The position numbers were made by a program, and so were the translations under genes. Shown one piece after another: positions 3-5,721 of a stretch of DNA of 5,721 nucleotides; the first letter of the stretch is position 1, and each line of letters begins with the position of its first letter. A model generated the notes under the pieces. It ran no database searches. It was not told where the DNA came from and worked only from the letters and a program-made list of their open reading frames with translations. The stretch covers positions 1 to 5,721 of the forward strand of contig DLFX01000376.1 in the NCBI GenBank assembly GCA_002482405.1, in the 5' to 3' direction. The stretch is from Firmicutes bacterium UBA7709. GTDB lineage: Bacteria > Bacillota_A > Clostridia > Peptostreptococcales > Anaerovoracaceae.

Positions 3-3000
3 GATGGGGCCCGTACGGTAGTTCAAATACGTTCGACCGGCACATCTACTGACTATACCTTTTGGTGTTATGAACAGGTATACGGTGATATGCCGCAGCG
101 GGTAGAGGAATATCTCTGCATTGCATCGCAGTTTACAAACGGCGCCGGAACTGGGTCCTATGGTCTTAACGGTGTAGCGACACTGCGGGGCAACGAACTG
201 ACGAATACTACAAAACTATCCAATCCCAGTGTTAGTGACGAACTCTATGGCAGTAACACAAGCATAAATGGAACCCCCATTTCACTTGGCAACTTTGGCG
301 GCTATATTACATATTACTATGAAAAACCCATCATTGATAACCCCAACAACCCTTACGGAGTGGACTTCATTGTCTATGGCAATTCCCACGATGGCGGACC
401 AGGCTTTGCTGAACCGGGAAATGTGCTCGTTTCAGAGGATGGAGAACACTGGTATTCTCTTGCGGGTTCGCTGCATTACGATGATGCCGCCATATGGGGC
501 TACTCTATGACATATAAACCCAATGCCTCAACATCTATTTGGACGGACAATTACGGCGGTGCAGGCAAGGCAGGAGGTTATCCTGTAAAGGAATTTTATC
601 CACTGTTTCCTTGGACGCCGGAGCTTGAAAGGGAAATCACTCTAACAGGCACGTTGCTTGTGGCAGAATCAGGGAAAAATGAATACGGAAACACCGTGCC
701 GCCATTTCCACATTTCGGTTACGCGGATTGCGGAATCAAGGTTGACACCAATGTTGCTTTGAATCCGTACACGGGATTGGTTGATTGGGTAAGCGCAAGA
801 AATGACGGTTTTGACCTGAAGTGGGCTGTGGATGAGAAAGGAATGCCTGTAGATGTCAGCGACAAGGGATTTCATTACGTCAAAGTCCAGACTGCGACGA
901 ATATTCTCAACAGCGCCATAGGTGAAAAGTCAACGGAAATTAATGGAATGCGCCTTACTGCTCCGACCCCTTCCAAAGTTGGTACAACGCAAGCTCCTGC
1001 TTCTATCACGGTAGACGGCAAAGCCGTGGCGCTGCAGGACGGCGTGTATGTGTATAACGATGTACCCGTCAGCGGCGCATTCGTCGTGAATGTAAACACG
1101 CCCAATGGCTCGAACATCTACATTAACGGTTCCCGGGGAGCTTCCAGCACATACAAAAAAATGCCAAATCATAAGATGCTGAGGATCATCGTGCAGGAAG
1201 GGGAAAAGGAGCCATGGATAGGTTATTTCAACCTTGTGGAAGGACAACCGGACGAGAATGATCAGTACACGCTTGTCAAGTTTGATCCTGGTTATGGCAG
1301 GATAGAGGGCGCTTACGAACGCACCTATACGCCCGACACACCGGATAAGAGCTTTCCGGTTCCCGTGTGGGAAAAACGTGAATTCTTAGGTTGGTATGAC
1401 AAGAGTGGAAAAAAATACGACCAATATACACCTGATATGCCCAAAGAGATTGCATTGACGGCGCAGTGGAAATATATTCTTCAGCCGGATGAGGATCCGA
1501 CCGTAAAGGTTACCTTTCGGCTTATCGGGTCCACCCGTTCAAAGGGAGACGTGGATCTGAGTAAAGGCGACGAAGGATATTACGGTGCAAAATATGTTAC
1601 ATGGAGGGCCACAAGGCAGTGGACGATGGAAAAGGGTTCCACTGTATACGATCTATTTGTGCTGGCCATGGAAGATGCGGGGCTGATCACGAAGGGAGAG
1701 GGCAAGAATTACGTGTCAGATATAACTGCCCCATGCGGCGCCTACAAGTTGTCCGAGTTTACGAATGGGGAGCGTTCCGGATGGATGTATACCGTCAATG
1801 GAAAACATCCCCCGGAAGGTTTGCAGTACTGGGATTTGAAAAAAGGCGATAAGGTGATCTGGCACTATGTAAACGATTATTCCTATGAAGTTGCAGACTG
1901 GGAGAGTCTGGGAGGAAAAGAGTATCCACCTCGAGGGGATGGAAAATATTGGAACAAATGGCTAGAGGCGAAGGATGTAGATCCGAATTGTGACGATGTG
2001 CTCGGTGGCGACGCAGCGACAGGTTCCACCACCTTAGCGCCAAAGGTCACGGCGTTAAAAGGTGTGGCGTCTGTTTCCATCAAGGCTTCGGACATGACCG
2101 GCGCTATCACCGATGCAAAGAAAAACAGCAGCAAGACCATTGTCATTGCTCCGGAGATCACAGGAACTGCCAAGAAGGTAAGCGTTGAACTGCCGAAATC
2201 TTCTCTTTCCTCTGTAGCGTCAGACACTGACGCCGATCTGATGGTTCAGACTCCCGTGGGCAATGTGACGATTCCCAACAGTGTGCTGCCTTCAGTGGTA
2301 TCCCAGGCCGCCGGAAGCGAGGTAATCATCAGCATTGAAGCTGTGGATTCATCAGCCCTGACAGAGAATCAACAAAAAACTGTCGGAAGCGGTCTTGTTT
2401 ACGATGTTTCCATTTTGAGCGGCGGCAAGAAAATCACCAACTTTAGCGGAGGCAGCATTACAGTGTCCTTGCCTTATACCCTCAAAACCGGCGAAGATTC
2501 CAGCGGCGTCACGGTTTGGTACTTAAACGATAAGGGCGAGCTCGAAAAAATCGCCTGCAAGTACGACAAAGCGACAGGCTTTGCAACCTTTACCACGAAC
2601 CACCTGTCCAGGTATCTGGTAGGATACAGCAAGGCATGGCAAAACCCCTTCGCTGATGTGAAGAGCGCAGACTGGTTCTATGGAGCTGTGGAGTACGCTT
2701 CAATGAATGGACTGTTTAACGGCACCGCCGCTACAGCCTTTAGTCCCAACGCACAGATGACAAGGGCGATGCTGGTCACCGTCCTGTACCGCCTGGCGGG
2801 TTCCCCTGCAGTTACGGCGACCGCTGCGGGAGCGGCGGCAACCGGCAGTGCGACTGCAAGCGGGTTCACTGATGTGAAGAGCGGACAGTGGTACAGCGAT
2901 GCTGTGGCCTGGGCCAGTGCCAACGGTATTGTCGCAGGAATGGGCGGCGGCCTGTTCGGAACGGACAACAACGTGACCCGTGAGCAGATGGCGGCGATCC

Positions 3001-3230
3001 TCTACAATTACGCCAAGTACAAGAGCTATGACACGGCAAAGGCGGCGGAACTGAACGCCTTTACAGATGCCCCGGCCATCGGAAGCTGGGCGCAGCCTGC
3101 AATGAGGTGGGCAAACGCCGAAGGGCTGATCACCGGGCGGACGGCAGATACTCTTGCGCCGGGCGGAAACGCCTCCCGTGCCGAGGTAGCCACTATTTTG
3201 AAGAGGTTTGCCGAGGGGATTGCAAAATAA
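3..3230 (+). CDS. SLH-anchored surface protein with InlB-type repeat and DUF4430 domain, 5' partial
   Basis: Predicted exported protein held on the cell wall, probably binding a ligand at the surface. The frame is open from the first full codon at 3, so the Met codon at 90 is internal (no ribosome binding site) and the true start and signal peptide lie upstream. Domains in order: a beta-rich region at about 111-743 with the signature GGYITYYYEKP, then VDFIVYGN and AEPGNVLVSEDGEHWYSLAGS, like a jelly-roll surface-protein domain; an InlB B-repeat (Flg_new type) at 1269-1469 ending in FLGWYDKSG and ALTAQW; DUF4430 at 1503-1880 with GWMYTVNG and KKGDKVIWHYV, related to the C-terminal domain of transcobalamin; a beta-rich spacer at about 2037-2630; three SLH domains at 2643-2801, 2862-3029 and 3054-3218, the first two separated by an Ala/Thr-rich linker. 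SLH triplets bind secondary wall polymer. The stop is TAA at 3228. Domain calls are firm; the corrinoid ligand is inferred from DUF4430 and the riboswitch next door. Confidence 0.9.
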   Translation, partial: DGARTVVQIRSTGTSTDYTFWCYEQVYGDMPQRVEEYLCIASQFTNGAGTGSYGLNGVATLRGNELTNTTKLSNPSVSDELYGSNTSINGTPISLGNFGGYITYYYEKPIIDNPNNPYGVDFIVYGNSHDGGPGFAEPGNVLVSEDGEHWYSLAGSLHYDDAAIWGYSMTYKPNASTSIWTDNYGGAGKAGGYPVKEFYPLFPWTPELEREITLTGTLLVAESGKNEYGNTVPPFPHFGYADCGIKVDTNVALNPYTGLVDWVSARNDGFDLKWAVDEKGMPVDVSDKGFHYVKVQTATNILNSAIGEKSTEINGMRLTAPTPSKVGTTQAPASITVDGKAVALQDGVYVYNDVPVSGAFVVNVNTPNGSNIYINGSRGASSTYKKMPNHKMLRIIVQEGEKEPWIGYFNLVEGQPDENDQYTLVKFDPGYGRIEGAYERTYTPDTPDKSFPVPVWEKREFLGWYDKSGKKYDQYTPDMPKEIALTAQWKYILQPDEDPTVKVTFRLIGSTRSKGDVDLSKGDEGYYGAKYVTWRATRQWTMEKGSTVYDLFVLAMEDAGLITKGEGKNYVSDITAPCGAYKLSEFTNGERSGWMYTVNGKHPPEGLQYWDLKKGDKVIWHYVNDYSYEVADWESLGGKEYPPRGDGKYWNKWLEAKDVDPNCDDVLGGDAATGSTTLAPKVTALKGVASVSIKASDMTGAITDAKKNSSKTIVIAPEITGTAKKVSVELPKSSLSSVASDTDADLMVQTPVGNVTIPNSVLPSVVSQAAGSEVIISIEAVDSSALTENQQKTVGSGLVYDVSILSGGKKITNFSGGSITVSLPYTLKTGEDSSGVTVWYLNDKGELEKIACKYDKATGFATFTTNHLSRYLVGYSKAWQNPFADVKSADWFYGAVEYASMNGLFNGTAATAFSPNAQMTRAMLVTVLYRLAGSPAVTATAAGAAATGSATASGFTDVKSGQWYSDAVAWASANGIVAGMGGGLFGTDNNVTREQMAAILYNYAKYKSYDTAKAAELNAFTDAPAIGSWAQPAMRWANAEGLITGRTADTLAPGGNASRAEVATILKRFAEGIAK

Positions 3231-3248: not shown

Positions 3249-3284
3249 TAAAAAGGGAAAGCCCCGGAGAAATCCGGGGCTTCC
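3249..3284. terminator. Terminator-like hairpin behind the surface-protein gene
   Basis: Ten-base-pair stem at 3259-3268 and 3273-3282 (AAGCCCCGGA / TCCGGGGCTT) with a GAAA tetraloop, starting 28 bases after the stop codon of the SLH gene. The plus-strand side is followed by CCAGACTG rather than a T tract, so it is weak in that direction. On the minus strand the hairpin is followed by TCCCTTTTTATT, a better terminator. It was probably a shared or bidirectional terminator before the insertion sequence arrived. The same stem-loop recurs at 4947-4972. Confidence 0.75.
3258..3283 (+). repeat. Left target-site duplication (26 bp) of the insertion sequence
   Basis: This 26-bp stretch is repeated exactly and in the same orientation at 4947-4972. 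It contains the whole GCCCCGGA-GAAA-TCCGGGGC hairpin. Because the repeat is nearly palindromic it first looks like part of an inverted repeat, but the loop reads GAAA on the plus strand at both sites, which identifies a direct repeat. The next base (C, 3284 and 4973) also matches, so the duplication could be counted as 27 bp. The C is given to the element here because it extends the inverted repeats to 16 bp. Confidence 0.85.
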
Positions 3285-3299
3285 AGACTGCTGACAAAC
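3284..3299 (+). repeat. Left terminal inverted repeat of the IS
   Basis: CAGACTGCTGACAAAC, identical to the reverse complement of 4931-4946. Its last four bases (AAAC) also form the foot of the subterminal hairpin 3296-3323. After that hairpin, weaker similarity between the two ends resumes: TTTTCAAATG here against TTTTTAAATG read inward from the right end. Confidence 0.85.
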
Positions 3300-3324
3300 G
3301 CGGCGAAGATTTTCGCCGCGTTTT
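3296..3324. terminator. Subterminal hairpin and terminator at the left IS end
   Basis: Perfect 12-bp stem, AAACGCGGCGAA at 3296-3307 and TTCGCCGCGTTT at 3312-3323, with loop GATT, followed by a fourth T on the plus strand. It lies 40 bases beyond the transposase stop codon, so it can end the transposase transcript on the minus strand. On the plus strand it can stop read-through from the SLH gene. With its GC-rich stem running straight into TTTT it is a better plus-strand terminator than the hairpin at 3259-3282. Confidence 0.8.
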
Positions 3325-3363
3325 CAAATGTCCAGTTATTAATTTGATTTCTTAATTAGAATT

Positions 3364-4809
3364 TTAGGCAACCAATAATTGGTTGAAATTGGAAATCTGA
3401 AAGCGAATAAGTAGACTTTTAAGTGGATTTTCCCTCCTGCTCAGCAGGAGGGCGATCTTTTTCATATTCTGCACTGCTGCGGTCAGCAGGCATTGTTCAC
3501 GAACTCCATCGATTCCGCGCAACCGACAATAGCGAAGCCCATGCAATTCTTTTGAATCTGCAAAACTTCGCTCTATGTGCTCTTTTCTCCCTTTGTAGAT
3601 CTCCTTGCCCGAGTCACTCAGTGTGTAGAGATGCTGCCATTCCTTGTAGTCTTCCCAGATGTGGCGCTGAAGGCTTTTACATGCCTGCTTTTCTGTCAGG
3701 CATTCGCCCTTTCTCGGGCAGCTGCTGCAGTAAGATTCTTTTGCCCTGTATTCCCGGTAGCCTTCCCGGTTTGTGGTCCTGTATTCCAGGTATTTTCTTT
3801 CCGGGCAGATGTAGGTGTCCCACTCAGGAACATATCGAAACATGTATTTTCCGTAACTGTCCTTTTGCCGATTACTTCTTTTGTAGCCGATTGCCGCATT
3901 GATTCCCATATCCCATAATGATTTGCAGATGTACGAGGTATTGTAACCTGCGTCGATCCCGACGCTCTTTGTTTGAAATCCGAATTTTTCGATCTGCGCC
4001 TTGATTCTCCCCACATATGGATCTGCGTCATTGAGATTCCCGGCTGTAACATGAGTGTCTGTGATGATGTTCGCTCTCTTATCTACTGTACGGTGATCCA
4101 GATAGAAGAACCCTTTTGGTTTTCCGTCCCGGTGCATGAAGCCGCTTTCCGGATCGGTCTTGCTTTGCTTGATCTCTTTGGTCTCTTTTTCGCCTGTGCC
4201 TGATCCGCCGGAATTTCCGTCGTCATCTTTATCCTTCAGGGGTTTTTTACCATGCTTTTTCCGATCTTCAGCAACTGCCTTGTCCAGTTCCTTCAGATAA
4301 GCTTTTGGTGTGACCTCTACGGTGACATTGACGAACTTGTTTTTATTGGCATTTGCCTTAAGATGTGTACTGTCAGTGTAAAGAACTTTCCCTCCAACAA
4401 GCCCTGCATCCATGGCTTGCCTTACGATCTCATCGAAGATCTGTTGTGGGATGTCGGTATTACGGTATCTCCTCCTGCGGTTCTGCCAAATCACGCTTGC
4501 ATCAGGAATTTTATCTTTCAGAGTATATCCAAGGAACCATCGATAGGCAATATTATACTTTACCTCTTCTACAAGTCGTCTTTCACTACGGATTCCAAAA
4601 AGGTAGCCAAGAAACAACATTTTGAACAGGATCTCCGGCTCAACCGCAGGTCTTCCGGTATCCTTGCTGTAATATGGTGAGCAAATTTCGTTAATGAATG
4701 AGAAGTCTATGTATCGATCGATTTTTCTGAGAAGATGGTCCTCTGGAACTAATTCATCGATCATGATAAGTTCTAATTCTGATTGTTTCTTCGTTCCTTC
4801 TGAAATCAT
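3364..4809 (-). CDS. IS1182-family transposase (DDE type), full length
   Basis: Cuts and joins the ends of its own element. The 481-residue protein starts with a DUF772-type helical DNA-binding region (about residues 15-95, including GRPAVEPEILFKMLFLGYLFG) followed by a DDE_Tnp_1-type RNase H-fold domain. The likely catalytic residues are D146 in LYTDSTHLKAN, D286 in SVGIDAGYN and E413 in HIERSFADSKELHG. A Lys/Asp/Gly-rich, probably disordered stretch at about 180-215 separates the first two. Cysteines 335, 361, 364 and 370 (YICPERKY, CSSCPRKGEC) form the metal-binding-like motif common in this family. Start chosen at 4809 because AAGGAG lies six bases upstream. No frameshift or internal stop is visible, so the enzyme is probably functional. 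Family assignment is sure; activity is inferred. Confidence 0.93.
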   Translation of the reverse strand: MISEGTKKQSELELIMIDELVPEDHLLRKIDRYIDFSFINEICSPYYSKDTGRPAVEPEILFKMLFLGYLFGIRSERRLVEEVKYNIAYRWFLGYTLKDKIPDASVIWQNRRRRYRNTDIPQQIFDEIVRQAMDAGLVGGKVLYTDSTHLKANANKNKFVNVTVEVTPKAYLKELDKAVAEDRKKHGKKPLKDKDDDGNSGGSGTGEKETKEIKQSKTDPESGFMHRDGKPKGFFYLDHRTVDKRANIITDTHVTAGNLNDADPYVGRIKAQIEKFGFQTKSVGIDAGYNTSYICKSLWDMGINAAIGYKRSNRQKDSYGKYMFRYVPEWDTYICPERKYLEYRTTNREGYREYRAKESYCSSCPRKGECLTEKQACKSLQRHIWEDYKEWQHLYTLSDSGKEIYKGRKEHIERSFADSKELHGLRYCRLRGIDGVREQCLLTAAVQNMKKIALLLSRRENPLKSLLIRFQISNFNQLLVA

Positions 4810-4815
4810 GGCAAA

Positions 4816-4821
4816 CTCCTT
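4816..4821 (-). promoter_or_regulatory. Ribosome binding site of the transposase
   Basis: AAGGAG on the minus strand, six bases before the ATG at 4809. It supports this start and good translation, although transposases are often poorly translated. Confidence 0.8.
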
Positions 4822-4846
4822 GAAATATCAATGTTTTCTTAACATT

Positions 4847-4852
4847 ATTATA
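4847..4852 (-). promoter_or_regulatory. Transposase promoter, -10 box
   Basis: Perfect TATAAT on the minus strand, 37 bases before the transposase ATG. Only a poor -35 candidate (TCAACA, spacer of about 19) is visible, so the promoter is probably weak. A 6-bp stem, AATGTT and AACATT at 4830-4835 and 4841-4846, lies near the expected transcript start. Confidence 0.55.
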
Positions 4853-4901
4853 CCATGGAATTGCTTTTATTTGTTGATTTTTATTGCTTTTGTCCATTTA
4901 A

Positions 4902-4934
4902 AAACCCTGCATCATAAATTTTGATGCAGGGTTT
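4902..4934. terminator. Subterminal hairpin and terminator at the right IS end
   Basis: Perfect 13-bp stem, AAACCCTGCATCA at 4902-4914 and its complement at 4922-4934, with a 7-base loop. On the minus strand it ends in TTTTTA, so it can stop outside transcription from entering the transposase gene. Its outer four bases are the inner end of the right inverted repeat, the same arrangement as at the left end, but the stem sequence is unrelated to the left one. Confidence 0.8.
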
Positions 4935-4946
4935 GTCAGCAGTCTG
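4931..4946 (-). repeat. Right terminal inverted repeat of the IS
   Basis: GTTTGTCAGCAGTCTG on the plus strand, the exact reverse complement of 3284-3299. It lies next to the right copy of the 26-bp direct repeat and its inner bases form the foot of the hairpin 4902-4934. Confidence 0.85.
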
Positions 4947-4972
4947 AAAGCCCCGGAGAAATCCGGGGCTTC
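4947..4972 (+). repeat. Right target-site duplication (26 bp), again a full hairpin
   Basis: Exact same-orientation copy of 3258-3283, including the stem-loop GCCCCGGA-GAAA-TCCGGGGC, here at 4950-4957 and 4962-4969. It is followed by CCTGATCACTTT, which should be the original sequence downstream of the hairpin before insertion. From here to the promoter at 5056 there are about 80 bases in which I see no gene or clear signal. Confidence 0.85.
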
Positions 4973-5055
4973 CCTGATCACTTTATGATTAAACCAGTGC
5001 GAAAATTTGACTAAATCACCGCCAGACCGCTGCGCTGATATCCAAGAAAATCCCC

Positions 5056-5083
5056 TTGACATCAAAGGTTTTCACGGTATAGG
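5056..5083 (+). promoter_or_regulatory. Sigma-A-type promoter of the riboswitch-led gene
   Basis: TTGACA at 5056-5061 is a perfect -35 box. Sixteen bases later is TATAGG at 5078-5083, a four-of-six match to the -10 box. Transcription would start near 5090, about a dozen bases before the first stem of the aptamer and 110 bases beyond the right end of the insertion sequence, so the promoter is native and intact. Confidence 0.7.
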
Positions 5084-5102: not shown

Positions 5103-5261
5103 TTTTCCTGCAGTTGCATCGATTGCCAGCCAGTAAAATATGGACGGCGAGCGGATGCATTGAATGACAAGCCGGTCGGAATCCGGCGCAGTCTTACCTC
5201 TACTGTGTTTCGCAAGTGTTTTGAGCGCGTGCGATAAGCCAGGTTGTCAGCTGCTTGAAGG
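5103..5261 (+). promoter_or_regulatory. Cobalamin-riboswitch-like aptamer (divergent)
   Basis: Several elements of the B12 riboswitch occur in the right order. A closing stem P1 pairs 5103-5107 with 5257-5261 and 5110-5114 with 5250-5254. P2 is TGCATC/GATGCA at 5115-5120 and 5154-5159. TTGAATGACAA at 5160-5170 corresponds to the consensus UUAAUAGGGAA. GCCGG/CCGGC at 5171-5175 and 5183-5187 encloses a seven-base loop. CTACTGT at 5200-5206 matches the consensus GCCACUGU. A stem TCGCA/TGCGA follows at 5210-5214 and 5230-5234. AAGCCAGG at 5236-5243 matches the first half of the B12 box. The second half of the box and the usual GGG/CCC pair are changed (GAC/GTC in place of GGG/CCC, which keeps pairing). 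Binding a cobalamin would be expected to reduce expression of the downstream gene. The class is likely; the ligand form is unknown. Confidence 0.7.
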
Positions 5262-5414: not shown

Positions 5415-5424
5415 AATGAAGGGG

Positions 5425-5721
5425 ATGAAAAGAATTAAATCTGCGAGAAGAACCGGAGTTTTACTGGCACTGCTTCTGGTTGTTTCCATGACGTTCGGCA
5501 GCGTTTCAGCATTTGCCGCGGGCGGTCAGACGGCTGCGAACGGAGCGCCGTTGCTAGCTGCAAGCGGACAGGGGGCGACGCAGGAAACCATAAAAGCTGC
5601 CATGGACGATACGGCGGCCTACGTTTACAAGACCGTGCAGGACCCCCAGGTGGGCTCCATCGGCGGAGAGTGGGCGGTGCTGGGCCTTGCGAGAAGCGGC
5701 TGCAGCGTGCCTGCGGAATAT
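5425..5721 (+). CDS. Exported protein, probable transcobalamin-like alpha/alpha-barrel, 3' partial
   Basis: The first 99 codons are present; the gene runs off the right edge. The N-terminus is a clear signal peptide: a basic stretch MKRIKSARR, a hydrophobic core GVLLALLLVVSMTFG, and a likely cleavage after AFA (residue 31). A low-complexity Ala/Gly/Gln linker follows. From about residue 55 the sequence ETIKAAMDDTAAYVYKTV and then GSIGGEWAVLGLARSG resembles the first helices of the prenyltransferase/intrinsic-factor-type alpha/alpha barrel seen in Clostridia surface proteins that also carry DUF4430. These are thought to bind corrinoids outside the cell. The gene lies alone behind its own promoter, B12-type riboswitch and long terminator, which supports that role. 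The in-frame ATG at 5416 would add three residues. The signal peptide is sure; the barrel and ligand are inferred from about 40 residues and context. Confidence 0.85.
   Translation, partial: MKRIKSARRTGVLLALLLVVSMTFGSVSAFAAGGQTAANGAPLLAASGQGATQETIKAAMDDTAAYVYKTVQDPQVGSIGGEWAVLGLARSGCSVPAEY

Follow-up and report, generated by a model that had tools for sequence, protein, structure and literature searches.

Background

Some members of the IS1182 family of insertion sequences reportedly target palindromes, according to a review cited elsewhere. The closest described systems are IS1272 and TnSha1 of Staphylococcus, both of the IS1182 family, which target hairpins without any conserved sequence, confirmed terminators among them, and in which the joint is decided by the position of the hairpin (PMC4923244, PMC5678879). 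IS1272 removes the hairpin and does not duplicate the target (PMC4923244, PMC5678879). Here we describe an IS1182-family element in a 5,721-bp stretch of DNA from Firmicutes bacterium UBA7709 (contig DLFX01000376.1; hereafter the window), which is flanked on both sides by the same complete 26-bp hairpin, and a clade of relatives inserted in the same way. The window's element resembles IS1272 and TnSha1 in its family and in having a hairpin as target; however, IS1272 loses that hairpin, whereas the window's clade keeps it and duplicates it whole. Such a duplication was drawn by Wan et al., in the IS1272 paper, as a hypothetical pathway b, and in the available part of that paper we noticed no sites of this kind. 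In searches of an open-access library we found no report of systematic whole-hairpin duplication with data; it may be recorded in subscription papers or in ISfinder. Hairpin targeting in the IS1182 family is already known, and what may be new is whole-hairpin duplication documented with site data.

DDE transposons normally make short target duplications of one length, their two active sites hitting a straight helix at a fixed stagger. Tn5, for instance, makes a fixed 9-bp duplication, whereas the window's clade makes repeats of 14-52 bp. Like the elements of the IS200/IS605 family, the clade carries hairpins within both element ends; unlike them, it has a DDE enzyme, terminal inverted repeats and long duplications, while IS200/IS605 elements use an HUH enzyme on single strands and duplicate no target. 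Among named elements, ISBspe1 and ISEfa7 (IS1182 family by record annotation) encode transposases 52% and 39% identical to that of the window, and each has the same hairpin on both sides, as a 20-bp repeat in ISBspe1 and as judged by eye in ISEfa7; we found no difference in placement between these and the window's element.

Results and discussion

Anatomy of the insertion

The 28-nt stretches at positions 3257-3284 and 4946-4973 of the window are identical to each other. Setting the borders of the element by the end consensus of its relatives, CAG...CTG, gives an insertion sequence of 1663 bp at 3284-4946 on the minus strand and a duplication of 26 bp, with the left copy at 3258-3283 and the identical right copy at 4947-4972; sliding each end by 1 bp would give a 28-bp repeat and a 1661-bp element. 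The repeat reads AAAGCCCCGGA-GAAA-TCCGGGGCTTC, which is an uninterrupted 10-bp stem with a GAAA loop and a single extra base at both sides. A preliminary description of this DNA had already recognized the direct repeat as one complete stem-loop, and its 26-bp copies coincide with ours. Folded as single-stranded DNA, each copy has a predicted energy of -12.9 kcal/mol (z scores of -5.5 and -6.4), and none of 200 shuffled sequences was as stable.

The element is bounded by a perfect terminal inverted repeat (16/16 bp; CAGACTGCTGACAAAC at 3284-3299 and GTTTGTCAGCAGTCTG at 4931-4946), between which lies a single transposase gene, as expected for the IS1182 family. This gene (3364-4809, minus strand) is intact and encodes an IS1182-family DDE transposase of 481 residues, which contains the Pfam domains DUF772 and DDE_Tnp_1_6 and scores 459.7 bits against the NCBI IS1182-family model NF033551 (cut-off 270). 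The predicted model of the protein has an RNase H-like DDE fold and resembles Tn5 transposase; a search of solved structures with the transposase sequence returned no match.

The target-site rule across the clade

A scan of genome contigs yielded 332 pattern matches and 266 relatives, of which the best 80 loci were taken. Family searches covered the 16 genomes reached via those loci and two sets of 249 genomes, one centred on Bacillota, where 49 genomes had a match at 1e-60, and one centred on Pseudomonadota, where 27 genomes matched; 100 stretches were chosen from these searches, besides the loci that the searches returned. The analysed set comprises 239 loci including the window. A frame of at least 380 residues is present in 194, and 143 of these are distinct; the remaining 45 stood outside the tree, 32 of them being assigned to the window's clade by at least 37% identity to the window. 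Thirty loci (L081-L110) were excluded from the main analysis, L107-L110 as weak or broken matches and the rest as present under other identifiers. The tree was a quick likelihood tree with long-branch warnings, with support from the Shimodaira-Hasegawa-like approximate likelihood ratio test (SH-aLRT) and no bootstrap. It places the window's transposase in a clade of 77 of the 143 distinct rows with an SH-aLRT of 99; L009, in which relatives of two groups share one locus, fell outside this clade. Removing repeats of one site reduced the clade from 140 to 130 loci, and in 108 copies both ends were found with at least 60 bp of flank on both sides.

Nearly throughout this clade the element adjoins a hairpin. 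Counting hairpins of at least seven pairs, with G-T pairs and a single mismatch permitted, 216 of the 237 distinct ends that have enough flank adjoin one whose foot is no more than 2 bp from the element; the same holds for 517 of 4464 control positions taken from these flanks. In 84 of the 108 copies with both flanks, the element lies between direct repeats of 14-52 bp (median length 22 bp). At least seven pairs form in 80 of these 84 repeats, and 79 are exactly centred on a dyad; of 1344 control windows matched in length, 69 had at least seven pairs and were centred within 1 bp. The hairpin sequence differs at nearly every site, with a loop of 3-5 nt at 79 of the 84. The window's element has the traits of its clade, its repeat being one whole dyad-centred hairpin and each of its ends containing a hairpin. 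The same pattern is seen in Bacillota, Pseudomonadota, Lentisphaera and elsewhere, and also on plasmids, where ISBspe1, a Bacillus subtilis plasmid copy and a Rhizobium plasmid copy have hairpin repeats of 20, 19 and 23 bp, respectively, and where ISEfa7, judged by eye, agrees.

The 24 copies without a strict repeat were sorted by inspection, and 18 of them have hairpins on both sides. Four are matched pairs that the strict rule had missed (L030, L038, L040, L063), and in 14 both sides carry a complete hairpin but not the same one (L004, L005, L006, L025, L031, L036, L050, L057, L062, L071, L158, L186, L220 and L020); in L020 one hairpin is the reverse complement of the other. Differing hairpins are what recombination between two copies would leave behind. 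We also scanned viral contigs, with the rule and the end consensus fixed beforehand: 26 of 29 loci were scripted and 20 of the 26 could be assessed. Hairpin repeats of 15-36 bp flank the element in 15 of the 20, different hairpins lie on the two sides in three (L304, L314, L315), and in two just one of the sides has a hairpin (L302, L323). The preliminary description had suggested examining other copies of the element; the answer is a hairpin-sized, dyad-centred repeat in 84 of the 108 two-flank copies and, in the later viral set, hairpins on both sides in 18 of 20.

In one genome, two tandem elements are arranged around three copies of one 16-bp hairpin (L250, L251), which indicates that a duplicated hairpin has been used again as a target. 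The viral set also includes a 697-bp version of the element with a partial transposase gene (L327), still flanked on both sides by a 36-bp hairpin repeat.

Repeat length within one element and empty sites

Clostridium carboxidivorans P7 contains 11 copies of one element of 1611-1612 bp, each in a different hairpin; the repeats measure 18, 21, 22, 24, 27, 34, 36, 36, 37, 41 and 52 bp. Since one element is flanked by repeats ranging from 18 to 52 bp, a fixed stagger cannot produce them. Repeat length tracks palindrome length among these copies (Spearman 0.79, n=11) and, less tightly, across the full set of sites (0.56, n=84).

Sites from which the element is absent show the target before insertion. 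The left flank of the copy in Rhizobium leguminosarum (CP050563.1) is matched by 107 plasmid records, three of which (NZ_CP088107.1, CP049732.1, CP050082.1) lack the element and have flanks 96-98% identical; in these three, the alignments of the left and right flanks overlap by exactly 23 bp, which is a single hairpin. For a C. carboxidivorans copy, a relative with 95% identity (L270) has the hairpin once, while four further relatives have a different hairpin (three) or none (L271). A copy in a third genus has two relatives at roughly 90% that show a single hairpin (L282, L283), and three more distant ones that gave no informative comparison. The search for an empty counterpart of L253 covered 61 genomes and compared five loci, and its right flank was not usable. 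The single hairpin that the preliminary description had expected at an empty site is thus present in relatives.

The empty site of the window itself was not found in 398 genomes or in a DNA search of 20 genomes of the family of the best upstream-gene relative; among the 398, the nearest relatives of the upstream gene product are 49-60% identical over part of it. This gap is what would favour two hairpins that existed before insertion or belong to the element, with no target duplication at all. We regard that explanation as very improbable, given that the hairpin varies at nearly every site, even among copies of one element, and that element-free relatives of other copies have one hairpin, which contradicts it. 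For the same reasons (differing hairpins among copies and single hairpins at empty sites) an element carrying its own hairpin copies was ruled out. Nor does the window present a replacement of the IS1272 type, its hairpin being present twice there and once at the empty sites of relatives.

Proposed strand transfer at an extruded cruciform

From these observations, we hypothesize that this clade of the IS1182 family targets a hairpin-forming palindrome of nearly any sequence, with strand transfer near the 5' feet of the extruded cruciform, a reading that we consider probable. The palindrome would extrude as a cruciform, in which the 5' feet of both hairpins would meet at the four-way junction at a nearly constant spatial distance, whatever the length of the stem. 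A Tn5-like DDE transposase would then join the two 3' ends of the element at or near these feet, and gap filling would copy the hairpin on both sides, such that the hairpin and not a fixed stagger would set the length of the repeat (14-52 bp). The position of the cut seems to depend on the shape of the target and not on its letters. From the structure of the sites we infer that a cruciform is the substrate, that recognition is by the transposase, where and in what order the cuts are made, and the cutting chemistry.

A single-stranded substrate would be a different route to the same sites, with the hairpin recognised on the lagging strand at a replication fork or within a transcription bubble instead of as a cruciform in double-stranded DNA. 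The short loops of the clade's targets would suit any hairpin, and single-stranded hairpins are used by other transposons (IS200/IS605). However, both strands end up cut at the two feet of one hairpin, symmetrically about the dyad, and a one-strand substrate should leave some polarity, whereas the orientation of the element relative to the T-tract is unbiased (right 37, left 29, tie 18; p = 0.39). On this evidence, we think single-stranded recognition unlikely.

Besides the missing empty site of the window, several observations weigh against strand transfer at the feet of a cruciform. The palindrome extends at least one pair beyond the repeat at 51 of the 84 sites, by up to 16 bp per side, so that "at the foot" is an approximation and a cut exactly at the outermost foot is weakened as a candidate. 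The repeat begins with a purine at 83 of the 84 sites and with A at 69, and letters at the joint therefore matter somewhat. In five of the 108 copies (L046, L049, L056, L074, L154) a hairpin stands on just one of the two sides, and the repeats of L001 and L055 are short, with five pairs only. The best counterexample is L032, with a 7-bp repeat and no clear hairpin; a short non-palindromic duplication is the exception that the preliminary description had named in advance, and this is the only one among the 108. The count of dyad-centred repeats rests on choosing the longest hairpin in each repeat, which brings a bias towards centred ones that the control shares. Finally, the 11 copies in C. carboxidivorans (L111-L121) share a transposase frame broken into two pieces, and it is thus an assumption that the enzyme that was active is the one that they now carry. 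That 11 copies exist despite the broken frame could reflect recoding, help from another copy or decay after their spread.

The preliminary description had proposed that the transposase recognises the hairpin, or the cruciform that it forms, and that cutting at the foot leaves one copy on either side of the element. The sites of relatives support this proposal, with the foot taken only approximately. If it is true, the clade would be a natural probe of cruciform formation and makes it testable whether a transposase uses extruded cruciforms in living cells, a long-standing question.

Hairpins and terminators

Most of the 84 sites have A-rich left and T-rich right flanks and are terminator-like. 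Genes converge at 29 of the 66 sites that have a gene called on both sides, and five of the 84 sites lie in a frame that is open over 300 nt to either side, compared with 249 of 489 control positions and eight of 26 other hairpins in the same flanks. All three results would be expected of an element drawn to terminators by function, through RNA polymerase, a terminator-bound host factor or the A/T tracts, with the hairpin repeat as a consequence. This explanation leaves the identity of repeat and palindrome unaccounted for, though, and the lack of any preference relative to the direction of the T-tract also speaks against it, while selection against gene damage would also account for the genomic context. 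In addition, L021 lacks A/T tracts and is inserted in an open frame of which the left piece has matches to phage tail proteins (and the right piece none), so a hairpin can suffice. We judge attraction to terminators by function to be quite improbable; the target appears to be the hairpin and not the terminator as such. The scarcity of insertions in genes may reflect a preference for terminators or the mere survival of insertions at terminators, both of which fit.

Two claims of the preliminary description are affected. Its terminator targeting agrees with the terminator-like setting of most sites, but it is the hairpin that appears to be recognised. Its safe-harbour strategy, landing behind genes and interrupting nothing, fits the outcome, which selection against gene damage predicts as well. 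If true, hairpin targeting would show how an element can multiply with little damage to genes while a hairpin is left on each side.

In the window, the stop codon of the upstream gene (3228-3230) lies 27 nt ahead of the left hairpin. By position, the hairpin is plausible as the terminator of this gene, as had been proposed; however, the terminator scan finds it terminator-like on the minus strand only (tail CCTTTTTATT), and it is not followed by a T-run on the plus strand, on which the upstream gene is read.

Hairpins inside the element ends and related groups

The window's element contains a hairpin within its low-coordinate end (3296-3323, 12-bp arms) and another within its high-coordinate end (4902-4934, 16-position arms, 94% complementary). 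Defining an end hairpin as at least nine pairs within 65 nt of the end, we found one at both ends in 72 of 81 distinct clade elements (76 of 81 for each end), compared with 54 of 405 control windows within elements. Among related elements with 4-bp repeats the figure is one of 27 (nine of 27 for each end; control 14 of 135), and among elements ending in GGGGC, found by motif, four of 13 (seven and eight of 13 singly; control four of 65). With an inner side rich in T (mean 4 of 8), the end hairpins may do no more than keep transcription from running into the element. That they occur together with hairpin targeting is in keeping with a transposase that recognises hairpins both at its own ends and in the target.

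Tentatively, and with rather less confidence than in the cruciform itself, we suggest that a DDE transposase reads the hairpins at the ends and in the target, that the four-way junction serves as its ruler, and that the family is split by the position of the joint on the target hairpin. A constant spacing of active sites on the junction would give the repeats of 14-52 bp. Joining near the 5' feet would duplicate the whole hairpin, as in the window's clade; joining at the 3' feet would lose it, as Wan et al. propose for IS1272; and joining at the centre of the hairpin would leave a 4-bp repeat, as in the ISPse1 group. If true, hairpin duplication and the hairpin loss of IS1272 would fall into one scheme. 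For IS1272 itself, our script found no convincing ends in the locus on a Staphylococcus warneri plasmid.

ISPse1 and ISPmo1 belong to the IS1182 family, have related ends (GAGGCTG, CAGAGTG) and a target with partial dyad symmetry; they differ from the window's element in their fixed 4-bp repeat, GGCC in both, against 26 bp in the window. ISPse1 is listed with a 4-bp duplication in the literature (PMC3281130). A related group of 32 sites has 4-bp repeats (L122-L139, L171, L176, L184-L205, L264-L268 and others), which are GGCC in eight of the 32. These repeats lie near the centre of partly symmetric targets, with clear hairpin loops at L125, L126, L127, L139 and L197. Over the 32 sites, pairing is 0.47-0.66 at distances 1-6 from the repeat and uneven further out, values that stand without a shuffled control, and duplication of the loop is a lead only. 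In one genome, hairpin repeats of 25-34 bp surround stretches of about 1.9 kb (L229, L231, L233). These include a member of the 4-bp group, which measures 1657 bp in sister copies, as though it were carried by a small, non-autonomous element that targets hairpins.

Other elements end in GGGGC[TC]G and show no target duplication (L151, L160, L164, L165, L209-L213, L223 and others); these often have A-runs on the left and T-runs on the right, as though a terminator hairpin had been replaced. We would guess that this group is kin to IS1272.

Neighbouring features of the window

The upstream gene (3-3230, plus strand) is open at the start of the window and encodes three S-layer homology domains and DUF4430. 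Beyond the element, a promoter-like site lies at 5056. The downstream gene (5416-5721, plus strand) is truncated by the end of the window and has no Pfam match in the part present. An Rfam scan returned nothing above the gathering score; a weak match to the adenosylcobalamin (AdoCbl) riboswitch aptamer (20.1 bits, gathering score 50, E = 0.19) lies at 5169-5248, upstream of the gene at 5416.

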